A DNA stretch of 33,327 bases from Synergistaceae bacterium. GTDB taxonomy: Bacteria; Synergistota; Synergistia; Synergistales; Aminobacteriaceae. The stretch covers positions 1-33,327 of the forward strand of contig JAISUO010000005.1 in the NCBI GenBank assembly GCA_031272035.1. The letters run 5' to 3'. The notes under the pieces were generated by a model that saw only the letters and a program-made list of their open reading frames with translations, had not been told where the DNA came from and searched no databases. This document shows positions 4,840-31,065 of the stretch, piece by piece. The position numbers and the translations under genes are program-made. Numbering within the stretch: the stretch's first letter is position 1; every line of letters begins with the position of its first letter.

Positions 4840-7800
4840 ATGCGAATCGTTCCGTACTACAGGATGTCCGATCTGGACGTCGCTCTGAGAGAGGCGCTGA
4901 GAGAGGAAACGCGGTTTATCGTGCCTTCCCGTCGGGATCGGGACTGGTGGAGGACGCGAACGGCGTCGAAGGAATTCGGGCTGAGCGAGGAACGAAGGGG
5001 AATTCTCTGGAACTGGGGAGATTTGTACGACAACCTCATTGATTTCACCGGACTTCCGCGCCTGCGACAGATCGACCCGCCGGATCATCGTCTGATTCTG
5101 GCGCAGGTGGTGGAGCAATTTCTGAAGGAAGACCCCGAACCGGCCAAACGCTGGCCCGGCCTGAAACGTCCCGGTTTCATCGACGTTCTCTCGGACGACA
5201 TCCGCGAGCTGATCAACGAGGACATCTCCGTGGAACAGGTGGAGGCCGCGGCTCGGGACGACGCCCCGATCTCACGGGTGCTGCCCGCCCTTTACGGAAA
5301 TTATCTCGAATATCTCCGTCAGAACCGGCTCATGGACAGCGCCCAGATTCCCCAAAAGGCGCGGGAGCTTCTGGAGCTCTGCGGAGAGGACTGGGGGCGG
5401 TCGCAGGTTTTCGTGTTCGTCGGCTTCCTGTCCTTCACCCACGCCCAGCTCGCTCTGGTTCGGCGCATCGACGCCGTCTGTCGGGAGGTAACGCTGTTCA
5501 AGCCCGAAACGGGGCTTCGGGATTTTCAGGACGCCTCCATACAATTCGAGAGTCAGTTCGAGAGGCTGTCCCCCCTCCAACCCTTTTCCACGTCTCCCCC
5601 TTCAGGCAAAATCGCCTTTCTGAGCACCCTGGATTTTTCTCTTGAGCCGGAGGCCGTCGCCCGTTCTCTGGCTCTCTGGCGAGGGGGAGAGGGTTTTCTG
5701 GCAGAGACGCAAACTCCCTTTCCAGGCTTCGGAGCCATAGCCATCATGACTCCGGAACAGCGGGGGCCGGAGGTGGAATCGGCGCTGCGGCGCTATCGCA
5801 TCCCCTTCACTCTGGCTCAGGGACGCAGTATGAGCGACGTTCTTCCGGGGACGCTTCTCACTCCGATATGGACGGCCTGGGTTCAGGGGCTGGACTCCTG
5901 GGAGACGGCTCTGATTCTTGCGCATCCCTGTCTGGCAGGCGCCGGATTTCCCTTGGACGACGCCGCCTCAGACGGACCACGTGGGGTAAAGGGATGGGAA
6001 AGCTGGCTGGAATACCGGATAAACGCCTCAAAAGGCGTGGCCCGGAAAAATGCCCGACAGGCCCTGAAGGCCTTCAAGGCCCTGGTGAAATTCTGCCGCG
6101 CGCTGGAAAAAGGCGCCGCGCCGGAGGGGATTTTCGCGGCGCTTCACGCTTTTTTGACGACGCCGGGCCTCTGGCTGAAGGCCGCGACCTCCGCAGGGAC
6201 GTTCGACGACCCCGACCTGGACGAAGACCTGAGAGAGCTCGCCGCATCTCTGGCGGAGGTCGAAGCCAAACGTCTCGCCCTGCACGAACTTCAGCCCGAC
6301 CTTGGGCCGGCGGGCAAAGTGACCCTGAAGGGAACGGAGGCCGTCGATTTTCTGAAAAACTGGTGCTCGGAATCACGGGTACAGCCGGGTCCCGGAATCG
6401 GAGGCTCTGTCGCACTCCACTTCGGGCCGCCTCCAACTCTGGCCTCATATCCCGTGTGGATCATGACCGATGTCACTCAGAAGCACTGGCCCGGCACACA
6501 GCCCTCCTCTCCCCTGCTGGACGCGGAAGAGCGGGAACGGATGCGGGCCGCCTCCGCGTGGCTTCCCTCCGCTCACGACCGGCGGGCGCAGAGAGAAGCC
6601 CTCTTTCGAAGGCTGCTCTGGACGGGAGAGACTCTCACGATCGCATCCTGCTCCGAGACGGATCAGGACAAACGCCCCGCAGGAAAAACCCAGCTGCTGG
6701 AGACATTTCTCACGGATATGAAAACATGGGATTTGATGGAAGCGCCGCCTCTTGGAATCGGCGAACTGGCCCCCTCTCCCGGGAAGCCCTGTTTTCCCGC
6801 CATCGAGGCCCCCTTCTCAAAAACCGTCGAACGAGGAAAGCCCGCCGTTCGCTCCGAGGCCGGAAGCCCCCGCCTGTCCGTCAGCGATCTTCATGAACTG
6901 CTGGACTGCCCCTTCCGCTGGTGGCTCCGGCGCGCCGCGAGGCTGAACGAACGCCGGACGGCCTTTTCGGACAGCGCCGAGGCCGGAACGCTGACCCACA
7001 GGCTCTGGCAGAACATTTGGCGGCGCAGGGGAGAAGAGGCCGATGCTTCTCCTTCCCTGCCCGTTCTCGCGGCGGAGGAATGGAGAAAGGCTCTGGAACT
7101 TCACGAAGATTACGCCGGCTTCACGCGTTTCCTGTCCGACCGGCGGCTGAAGCGGACGCTCAAAAACCTTGAATTTTACATGGCCCGACTCGCCCAAACG
7201 CAGCAGGACATTCTGGATCGCCTTGAGGCGTCGGGGATCAGACATAAAATACTCTACATGGAAGAGGAGCTTTCCCTGTCCGCCCAAATTGACGGGGCCG
7301 TCTTTTCCGGGAGATGCGACCGGGTGGAGATGCTGGACGAAGGCCAAATCGTCATTCTGGACTATAAACTCGGAAAAGGCGGAACCTACGAAAAATCCCT
7401 CCCCCGTCTCACCGAGCGGCCCTGGCTGCCTCCTGAGCTTTTGGAGGGTCGGGAGGCGTTTCGCTTCGGACTTCAGCTTTCGGCCTACGCCCTGATGTAC
7501 GGCCGGCAGTTTCCCGACCACAGAATGGCGGGAGTGGGATTTCTCGGCCACAAAGACGGAGCTCTGGCGGGGACCTTCGCGACCCAAAGCCTCGCCGACT
7601 GCTATCTCCCCAGGGCAAAGCCGGTTTCTCCGGAAGAGCGGATCGCCGAGGCCGAAACCGCCCTTCGATGCGCCGCCGCAATTCTCAGAGAGGGCCGGTA
7701 CGAGCCCTTCTTTGACGCGGAATCCTGCAGCTATTGCGACATGAAAGGCATTTGCCGAAAGAGTGAACTGCGCGGCGAATCCCAGGGAGAAACTTCATCG

Positions 7801-27534: not shown

Positions 27535-27575
27535 TGTTTATAAAGGTCTGTGCCTCGCAGACAGTACCAAAAAAA

Positions 27576-27624
27576 TTTCTGTCCCTTTCAGGAAATTCTT
27601 TTCAGGAAATTCACAGAAAGGGAC
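27576..27624 (+). repeat. Tandem 13-bp dyad repeats inside a hairpin-forming block
   Basis: TTTCAGGAAATTC occurs at 27586-27598 and 27600-27612 (14-base period); each copy contains the dyad TTTC-AG-GAAA. Flanking sequences pair in two mutually exclusive ways: TTTCTGT (27576-27582) with ACAGAAA (27613-27619), or GTCCCTTTC (27581-27589) with GAAAGGGAC (27616-27624). It lies 85-130 bases before the nitronate monooxygenase start. Confidence 0.65.
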
Positions 27625-27708
27625 TGCTCCGTAAAACAATCGTATCTCGGAGCGGACGGGCAGGCTGGATGGTACAATGACCCTGAGTACAGCGGGAGGT
27701 GGATGACC

Positions 27709-28671
27709 ATGAAATCGATACTGTGTGACCTGTTCGGAACAGAATACCCTGTCATGCAGGGAGGACTGCAGTGGCTGGCCGTTCCGGAGTTCGCCGCCGC
27801 CGTTTCCGCCGCGGGGGCTCTGGGGACTCTCAGCTCTTCACTTTACTCCAGCAAACGGGACCTGATCGAGGGAATACGAAAAGTCCGGTCCCTCACCGAC
27901 AAGCCTTTCGCGGTAAACATTTCGATGCTGCCCCATCAGGCGGAGGGGGACCTGGTTTCAGATTTTCTGGACGCCGCTGCGGAGGAAAAAGTTCCCGTTG
28001 TGGAACTGGCCGGTCGGGACCCCACAGACATCGTCCCCCCGCTGAAAAAGGCCGGAGTCAAAGTCATTCATAAATCCACGGCGGTCCGGTTCGCTCAAAA
28101 AGCGGAAAAAGCCGGAGTGGATGCGGTGTCCGTCGTGGGGTTCGAGTGCGCGGGACACCCCGGCCTGGACGATGTCCCGACGATGGTGTTGATTCCCCGG
28201 GTGGTGGACAGCGTCAAAGTTCCGGTCCTGGCCGGCGGCGGCATCTGCGACAGCCGAACTTATGCCGCCGCGCGATGTCTGGGCGCCGCGGGCGTTGTCA
28301 TGGGAACCCGCTTTGTCGCCACCCGGGAATGCATCCTGCACCCGAATTTCAAGCAGGCCCTTCTGGAGGCGGACGAGCGTTCGACGGCGCTGGTGCAGCG
28401 TCCCATACGCAACGTGGCGCGCAACTACAAAAATGACCTCTGTAAAGAGCTGCTGGAGCTGGAAGCCAACGGAACGCCCACTCTGGAGCAGATTTTGACT
28501 TTTGTGAACGGTCAGCGCCAGCGCGCCGCCTACGAAAGCGGGGACGTCAACGGCGGCATGTTCCCCATGGGACAGTGCGCGGGCAACATCAGGGAGATTC
28601 TGAGCGTTCGGGAGGTCATAGAAGAAATCGCCGTCAACTCTGAAAAATTATTGAGGTCCCTCTGCGGATAA
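27709..28671 (+). CDS. Nitronate monooxygenase family flavoprotein
   Basis: 320 residues from ATG 27709, nine bases after GGGAGG; ATG 27703 in the same frame is too close to that site. It is a TIM-barrel FMN protein: 'FGTEYPVMQGGLQWLAVPEFAAAVSAAGALGTLSSS', 'FAVNISMLP', 'VVGFECAGHPGLDDVPTMVLIPRVVD' with the conserved His, 'KVPVLAGGGICDSRTYAAARCLGAAGVVMGTRFVATREC' for phosphate binding. The family oxidises alkyl nitronates, and many bacterial members have other or unknown substrates. The related enoyl-ACP reductase FabK is an alternative, but the region around GHPGLDD favours the nitronate monooxygenase group. It appears to be monocistronic and sits behind the AT-rich regulatory region. Confidence 0.88.
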   Translation: MKSILCDLFGTEYPVMQGGLQWLAVPEFAAAVSAAGALGTLSSSLYSSKRDLIEGIRKVRSLTDKPFAVNISMLPHQAEGDLVSDFLDAAAEEKVPVVELAGRDPTDIVPPLKKAGVKVIHKSTAVRFAQKAEKAGVDAVSVVGFECAGHPGLDDVPTMVLIPRVVDSVKVPVLAGGGICDSRTYAAARCLGAAGVVMGTRFVATRECILHPNFKQALLEADERSTALVQRPIRNVARNYKNDLCKELLELEANGTPTLEQILTFVNGQRQRAAYESGDVNGGMFPMGQCAGNIREILSVREVIEEIAVNSEKLLRSLCG

Positions 28672-28694: not shown

Positions 28695-28718
28695 GACTGA
28701 CAGAAATTGCTCTGACCG

Positions 28719-28921
28719 ATACCAATTTGCTTTCAATCAAGCGTTAACGAAGAAGCCAATGTTTGAATGTCACTGCTTTTAGCTATTCTAACTTCAGGCC
28801 TTTTACTTCAAATTGGTATGATACCAATTTGCTTTCAATCAAGCGTTAATGAAGAAGCTAATGTTTGAATGTCACTGCTTTTAGCTATTCTAACTTCAGG
28901 CCTTTTACTTCAAATTGGTAT
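28719..28921. repeat. Two tandem 101-bp units with terminal inverted repeats (MITE-like)
   Basis: Unit 1 (28719-28819) and unit 2 (28821-28921) are separated by one G and differ at two positions (C28748/T28850 and C28757/T28859). Each unit starts with ATACCAATTTG and ends with its reverse complement CAAATTGGTAT. The junction therefore forms a palindrome with 11-bp arms at 28809-28831. There is no room for a protein. TA next to a CCAATTTG end is reminiscent of elements that duplicate a TA target, so these may be small non-autonomous elements. GAAATTGCT occurs on both sides (28703-28711 and 28922-28930). Confidence 0.85.
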
Positions 28922-28949
28922 GAAATTGCTTTCGCCGGACGAACAGGCG

Positions 28950-30134
28950 TCACTTCGCCAGTCTTCTGTTGATTTCCTCGAATTCCTTCCGGATCGTGTC
29001 GTTCTGGAACGTCTGAATTTCGGGCATGGAGAGCGCCTGAATGGAGTCGAACAGATCCAGGCCGGATCGAATCAGATTGCGGAGGTCTCCGGAGCTTCGA
29101 ACGGTTCGATACGTGCTTTCGGCCACGTCGCGATTCCGGCGCAGGTCCGCCAGTGAGGCGTTGACGCTTTTGCGCTGGCTGGCCAGAAGTTCCATATAAA
29201 GCCCCGCCACCCGAACCGTCAGACCGTTGGACTCCGCGTTCGCCTCAAACGATTTTTTCTGCGCGTCCGTGTATACGGACTGTTTCGCCTTCGTCAGCGC
29301 GTCGGTCCGCAGTTTTTGGGCCTCGTTCTGAATTTCGGTCAGCCTTGGACGAAAATCCCTGTCAATTTTTTCCACAAGCCCCTCCTGAGTGTAGATCAGC
29401 AGGTCGTTCAGCACGAGATACATGCCAGTATAGCGTCGGTTGGCCTCCAGATTATCCCGATCCTCCCGGGCGAGCTCCGCCAGTTTTTCCACCACCCGGC
29501 GCACGTTGGAGAAGATCACCGCGTTTTGGAAAAGGTCGTCTCCGGTTACGGAGGTCAGCAGAATATCCACCTGACCGTCGTCCAGATCCAGCCCCAATTG
29601 ACGCAGTTCCGACGCGATGCGGGCGTTGAGTTCCACAAGCGCCTTTTCCTTACTTTCGATCTCCTTTGTGAGTTCCTCTATACGTTTGTCGATGTCCTGC
29701 CGGGACTGGATCCAGGGCAATTTGGCGCTCCAGGATGCGCTTGAGGCGTCCGGGGCGGAGATGCGTTTGTTGCGCAGGGCGTCTCTCTCCCCCCGAAGAG
29801 CGGGAATGCGCTCGCGCAGGGCTATGGCCTCCTTCCGCAGGTCGTTGGCGTCGCCCTGCAGCAGCAGAGAAAGCGCCTGGTCGAGAAGCGCGTCGATCTT
29901 TTTCGCGTTGGACGTCTTGTCCTCGCCGATCCACTTCGAATCCGGCAGCGATTCCTTTTTGTCCTCCAGCCTCAAAACCTCCGTCAGCGTATCGGAAAGT
30001 TTTCCCCAGGAGGACTCCAGCACACCCGGCAGCACGTCCGGCGAGGCCGCGCACGAAGCGGAGGCCATCGTCAAAACCAATATTCCCGCCCATCTGAACG
30101 CTTTTTTTATACGCATACGAATACCTTCGCTCAT
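28950..30134 (-). CDS. Secreted coiled-coil protein of unknown function
   Basis: 394 residues from ATG 30134, seven bases after GGGAGGGGG; the longer open frame to 30245 overlaps the permease gene and has no site. The N-terminus has a basic start (MRIKKAFRW) and a hydrophobic segment ending in MASASCAASPDV. That could be signal peptidase cleavage or a weak lipobox; Leu at -3 is missing. The mature part is strongly helical and charged, with coiled coils around 'LRKEAIALRERIPALRGERDALRN' and 'KRIEELTKEIESKEKALVEL'. A central 'LTSVTGDDLFQNAVIFSNVRRVVEKLAEL' region follows. I do not recognise a family. The gene lies 91 bases downstream of the ABC permease and may share its transcript. Confidence 0.75.
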   Translation of the reverse strand: MSEGIRMRIKKAFRWAGILVLTMASASCAASPDVLPGVLESSWGKLSDTLTEVLRLEDKKESLPDSKWIGEDKTSNAKKIDALLDQALSLLLQGDANDLRKEAIALRERIPALRGERDALRNKRISAPDASSASWSAKLPWIQSRQDIDKRIEELTKEIESKEKALVELNARIASELRQLGLDLDDGQVDILLTSVTGDDLFQNAVIFSNVRRVVEKLAELAREDRDNLEANRRYTGMYLVLNDLLIYTQEGLVEKIDRDFRPRLTEIQNEAQKLRTDALTKAKQSVYTDAQKKSFEANAESNGLTVRVAGLYMELLASQRKSVNASLADLRRNRDVAESTYRTVRSSGDLRNLIRSGLDLFDSIQALSMPEIQTFQNDTIRKEFEEINRRLAK

Positions 30135-30193
30135 GCAAATACCCCCTCCCAACACGATTTCTCCCGGGTATTGTACAGCGTTTTTTTCAATTA

Positions 30194-30212
30194 ATATACG
30201 GCTGATATACGG
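30194..30212. repeat. Two ATATACGG boxes, 11 bases apart
   Basis: ATATACGG occurs at 30194-30201 and 30205-30212, one helical turn apart. They lie between the permease stop and the coiled-coil protein start. This could be a regulator site or chance. Confidence 0.3.
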
Positions 30213-30225
30213 GACTCTTCCCTGC

Positions 30226-31065
30226 TTACGAGGCCCGCGCCCCATCGGCGCGGCGGAAGGAGCGTTCGTAAATCATGATGACGAAGGTAGTCGCCACGGT
30301 CAGGACAATGGCCAGAGCGTCGGCCTGGGCAATGTCGGAAGACATGTCCGAGACCTGCGTGTAAATCACCATGGGCAAAATTTTCACCGCCGTTCCGGTG
30401 AGGGCGAAAGCCGTTCCGAAGGCCCCCATGCTGACGGCAAAAAGCAGAGAGGACCCGGACAGAATGGCAGGACCGAGCATGGGAAGAATAACTCTGAAAA
30501 GAATGAGAAAACGTCCGGCCCCCAGACTGGACGCCGCCTCCACCAGACTCCAGTCCGCGTTGCTCCAGGCGACGACCATCGTGAGAATCATACGGGGAAT
30601 CAGAAAGTAGAGGTAGGCCACCACAAGCCCGCGCCAGGTGAACAGAAACGCGGAGAACTCCAGAGGGTCGATGCCCGTAAACCGCTTCAGCAGCAGGGTA
30701 ATAAACCCGCTGGTTCCCAGAAGGACGATGAAGGCAAATCCCACCACAAGCCCGCTGAAGGTCAGAGGCACGGAGGTCAGAGCCATGAAAAAATCCTTCA
30801 TTCTGCGGCTTCTGTAAATAGCGTAAGAAACGGGAATACCGATGATCGTCCCCAGAACCGCCGTGCTCACGGAGAGAATGAAGCTGGTAAACAGCGATTC
30901 TCTGTAGAGCCTCCGAATAAAAAGCGACAGGTAATTGGCCAGGGAGAGCTGTCCTCCCACGAAGAAGCTCTCCCACAGCACCAGCGCGAAAGGCCACGCG
31001 AGAAAGACGATCAGGACGATCGCCACAGGCAGCAACAACAAATAGAGTCCAGTCCTGTTTTTCAG
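30226..31065 (-). CDS. ABC transporter permease, PotB/CysU type, with probable CTG start
   Basis: About 279 residues with six membrane segments. The ATPase-docking EAA motif is seen in 'EAASSLGAGRFLILFRVILPMLGPAI'. It would form the membrane channel of an importer with the solute-binding protein encoded 55 bases upstream. The start is unusual. An in-frame TGA lies just before AAGGAGA (31080-31074). After that site there is no ATG, GTG or TTG until the run of TTG codons at 31041, 33 bases away. CTG at 31065-31063 is eight bases from the site and gives KNRTGLYLLLLPVAIVL, a normal permease N-terminus. No second permease or ATPase gene is adjacent. Confidence 0.87.
   Translation of the reverse strand: MKNRTGLYLLLLPVAIVLIVFLAWPFALVLWESFFVGGQLSLANYLSLFIRRLYRESLFTSFILSVSTAVLGTIIGIPVSYAIYRSRRMKDFFMALTSVPLTFSGLVVGFAFIVLLGTSGFITLLLKRFTGIDPLEFSAFLFTWRGLVVAYLYFLIPRMILTMVVAWSNADWSLVEAASSLGAGRFLILFRVILPMLGPAILSGSSLLFAVSMGAFGTAFALTGTAVKILPMVIYTQVSDMSSDIAQADALAIVLTVATTFVIMIYERSFRRADGARAS

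Follow-up and report, generated by a model that had tools for sequence, protein, structure and literature searches.

Insertion sequences of the IS630 family canonically duplicate the dinucleotide TA, and in the IS5 family some groups duplicate TNA. The repeat unit of pneumococcus (RUP) is a MITE of 107 bp that has been attributed to IS630-Spn1 (PMC2229807). Among the fungal relatives of IS630, the Fot group of pogo transposons duplicates TAA rather than TA (PMC7386202). No TNA duplication by a bacterial IS630 element was found in the literature searched, although one may still have been reported.

Here we analyzed a window of 33,327 nucleotides, the whole stretch of DNA under study, from a Synergistaceae bacterium (contig JAISUO010000005.1). 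We are fairly confident that its intergenic repeat consists of two tandem copies of a 99-bp MITE, likely moved in trans by a TNA-duplicating transposase of the IS630 family. The element resembles RUP in its size of about 100 bp, its dispersed intergenic copies, its short inverted termini and its IS630-like ends (PMC2229807). However, RUP inserts at TA whereas the MITE described here duplicates TNA, and both the ends and the host phylum differ; of the features that define RUP, IS630-like ends were thus found and the TA duplication was not. ISAli3 from Azospirillum and an element of the Acaryochloris plasmid pMB01 share with it the TACC-type ends and the TNA duplication, but these are 1.1-1.2 kb long with a transposase, while the MITE encodes none. 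Fot also makes a 3-bp duplication within the wider IS630-Tc1-mariner group (PMC7386202), but it is eukaryotic and its triplet is fixed as TAA.

Organization of the Tandem Pair

The pair, known from one metagenome-type assembly, occupies the gap separating two genes that converge on it, a nitronate monooxygenase-type gene on the left (27550-28671, plus strand) and a gene without Pfam match on the right (28950-30245, minus strand). It probably has no special role in this gap. The first-pass annotation had described two 101-bp units with inverted ends, two differing positions and a one-base spacer, and its coordinates were confirmed. The units occupy 28719-28819 and 28821-28921 with a single G between them, both end in ATACCAATTTG and its reverse complement, and they differ at 28748/28850 (C/T) and 28757/28859 (C/T). 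These differences had been read as C-to-T changes; the sites are correct, but at both of them it is unit 2 that agrees with the family consensus, and the private changes are in unit 1. Likewise, 101 bp is the length of the repeat but not of the biological unit. The true MITE is 99 bp long (TACCAATTTG...CAAATTGGTA), short and non-coding, with perfect inverted repeats of 10 bp at its termini, and the outer A and T that extend it to 101 bp lie outside the element because they are part of a 3-bp TNA target duplication.

The resulting order is CGA-element-TGA-element-TGA. The left flanking triplet CGA (28717..28719) has C instead of the T expected of TNA. It is followed by copy 1 (28720..28818, plus strand), a TGA common to both copies as target duplication (28819..28821), copy 2 (28822..28920, plus strand) and a right TGA, again a target duplication (28921..28923). 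Each copy includes an arm that is kept in other Synergistaceae genera, located at 28772..28818 in copy 1 (minus strand, where it reads TACCAATTTGAAGTAAAAGGCCTGAAGTTAGAATAGCTAAAAGCAG) and at 28874..28920 in copy 2 (minus strand). The sequences GCTAA (28857-28861) and TTAGC (28881-28885), proposed earlier to pair in unit 2, are present, but the predicted fold omits this pairing.

A 9-bp direct repeat, GAAATTGCT, does flank the array as had been noted, at 28703-28711 and 28922-28930 on either side of the pair. It was rejected as a target duplication, other copies showing the 3-bp TNA, and it is probably incidental because its left copy sits 7 bp outside the left MITE copy, unlike the duplication at other copies.

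Genomic Copies and Target Duplication

The 3.18-Mb assembly (122 contigs) was searched with the unit, yielding 49 matches, far beyond chance expectation (E=2.6e-47), that represent around 40 separate copies. In most copies the base preceding ATACC is the same as the base following GGTAT, in the context TTN...NAA, and the simplest reading of these flanks is a 99-bp element with a 3-bp TNA duplication, not the flanking duplication of TA or 9 bp that had been put forward. Among 42 scored intervals, counting two composites that span a tandem pair, 34 showed a perfect duplication. All four bases occur at the middle position of the triplet, and this is therefore not a TA duplication.

Long ORFs spanned the insertion sites more rarely than the controls (18/33 vs 324/330), a comparison that is crude because of spurious long ORFs. 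Relatives retain the right-hand gene without an adjacent repeat; no clean empty site was obtained because the left flank does not align in these genomes.

Some copies reach ~155 bp owing to an extra internal segment of ~53 bp, which is probably an insertion, since it is absent from other genera. Copies of this length, with the 53-bp insert at unit position 76, were observed at G000 C6:17218-17372, C18:14791-14945, C39:19100-19254, C80:8822-8976 and C92:5297-5451. Also seen were solo, one-ended fragments in which just the TACCAATTTGAARTAAAAGGCC terminus remains (G000 C102:35807, C77:41911, C90:11506, C13:23395 and others).

The mean difference among thirty 101-bp copies was 6.3 positions. Seven MITE copies are identical, each at a separate site, and therefore indicate recent movement. 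The two units of the window are mutual nearest relatives, with 2 differences between them vs at least 4 to any other copy. Our analysis uncovered a second tandem pair, at C96:13379-13577, with the order TGA-element-TGA-element-TGA. The units of this pair are closest to different subfamilies and therefore derive from separate insertions, one beside the other. A tandem layout would result from insertion of an element into the TNA triplet adjoining an existing copy, which is clear for the C96 pair; the pair in the window could equally well have come from insertion of a sibling or from local duplication via the TGA common to both units.

A Candidate Partner Transposase of the IS630 Family

Ends of the MITE type were found on autonomous elements, both on IS630-type elements of related genomes and, as the exact TACCAATTTG, in Acaryochloris. 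The IS630 element of genome G024 (1121 bp) has TACCAAGTTGCATTCAA ends with TGA on both sides, and the IS630 element of the Acaryochloris plasmid (pMB01) has exactly TACCAATTTG ends with TCA on both sides. ISAli3 copies are flanked by TTA or TGA, and other plasmid relatives by TTA or TAA. Genome G012 contains an IS630-type element of 1.13 kb whose ends (TACCAAGTTGCAATCAA) are close to the MITE end of the same genome (TACCAGGTTGCAATCAA); its flanking triplets, TTA and TAG, are unmatched. In total, matching TNA triplets were seen in 12 of 14 copies of this IS630 subgroup, by visual inspection of the printed ends, the exceptions being the element of G012 and one copy from Pararhizobium. Other IS630 elements of related genomes have TA flanks. 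The end of the MITE that carries the conserved arm agrees with the IS ends over the outer bases only (TACCAA.TTG).

In the window's own genome, a disrupted IS630 relic extends from C55:23680 to the contig end; its transposase is 65% identical over the aligned portion, and its left end (CACCAAGTTGCTTTCAACAGGGAGTTAAC) is similar to that of the MITE (TACCAATTTGCTTTCAATCAAGCGTTAAC). The assembly yielded no intact full-length IS or autonomous element ending in TACCAATTTG, and the partner transposase had no match in IMG/VR. The proteins of this subgroup, the best-supported candidate mobiliser, combine a winged HTH with DDE_3 and match NF033545 and PF13592/PF13358. We propose that an IS630 subgroup targeting TNA, and duplicating those 3 bp, would mobilise the non-autonomous MITE in trans. 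An IS630-type transposase would act on the MITE ends, and an active autonomous copy presumably exists, or recently existed, in the host lineage.

At L281 956-2008 and L268 756-1571 the IS630-type transposase is divided between two reading frames close to a run of A preceding a run of G, a possible site of programmed frameshifting.

Alternative Explanations

The MITE could be moved by another transposase that targets TNA, such as an IS5-family element. The 3-bp duplication is unlike the TA usually given for IS630, and IS5-like transposase domains are present in these genomes. However, the PF01609 transposases were rejected as partner, as no locus with matching ends was found at the tolerance used, whereas the IS630-type elements have both the matching ends and the TNA duplication, making this alternative unlikely. 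Even less probable is a structured RNA or regulatory element dispersed through intergenic regions, an RNA role having also been suggested by the first-pass annotation. One arm is kept between genera and the fold is slightly better than that of shuffles (z ~ -1.8 to -2.1), but 11-bp terminal inverted repeats would yield such a folding excess, the window had no Rfam match above the gathering score, and both the TNA duplications and the occurrence of identical copies at scattered sites are hallmarks of transposition. Individual MITE copies may still have a secondary role.

The two units of the window, mutually nearest with 2 differences, are what a single local duplication without any mobile element would leave. 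The first-pass annotation had tied this reading to there being no other copy; the ~40 dispersed copies bearing target duplications exclude it as the nature of the element, and it could account at most for the doubling at this site. The interpretation as a MITE was borne out by these ~40 copies, by the Synergistaceae relatives, by the duplicated targets and by a family of transposases whose elements have matching ends.

A Conserved Arm in Other Synergistaceae

The arm pattern AARGCCTRAAGTYAGAATAGCTMAAA was found in 70 stretches among 84,980 species genomes, exclusively in Synergistaceae MAGs. Of 188 Synergistota genomes, 10 contained a shorter arm pattern: nine belong to the window's family, and one, with a single match, to another family. 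Isolate names alone suggest that the related MAGs come from termite gut. At the sensitivity used, no copy of the unit was found in phages or plasmids, nor any arm in IMG/VR, and the arm was absent from the transposase loci examined.

The arm of G012 lies within 101-bp elements, with the TNA duplication in 6 of 8. Within G022, G031, G002, G003 and others, it is part of mostly 104-106-bp elements with TATAGTG ends. Of 39 full copies of this type, just 13 have the same base outside TATA at the two ends, a proportion that is near chance and fits a TA target. The other arm of the TATAGTG-type elements is similar to the terminus TATAGTGCTTTAACTTAA of a distinct IS630 element located in G033. G022 contains both TNA-type and TATAGTG-type elements with the same arm. 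The arm therefore accompanies two transposition systems. A model in which the MITE has switched transposase and has retained this 40-bp arm, carried by two IS630 systems (TA and TNA) in one family, as a selected module is possible, and we advance it tentatively. With such a switch, changes to suit the partner would be confined to the outermost bases and to the opposite arm.

The arm was also observed in tandem arrangements. It is repeated 6-7 times with a 71-bp spacing at ~1160-1680 of L070 (G020:C9), and it is duplicated in 41-bp tandem units within a TATAGTG-type element at L126 5622-5723, and also near 6082 on the opposite strand.

The MITE family is real and recently active, of the RUP/IS630 kind with a TNA target, and apparently undescribed, with no mention of it in the literature searched. 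These results add an apparently new MITE family that is essentially restricted to the Synergistaceae within the collections searched, and they bring to light an IS630 subgroup that duplicates TNA rather than the textbook TA. With the arm common to TA-type and TNA-type elements, it becomes possible to test whether a passenger transposon has switched its transposase.
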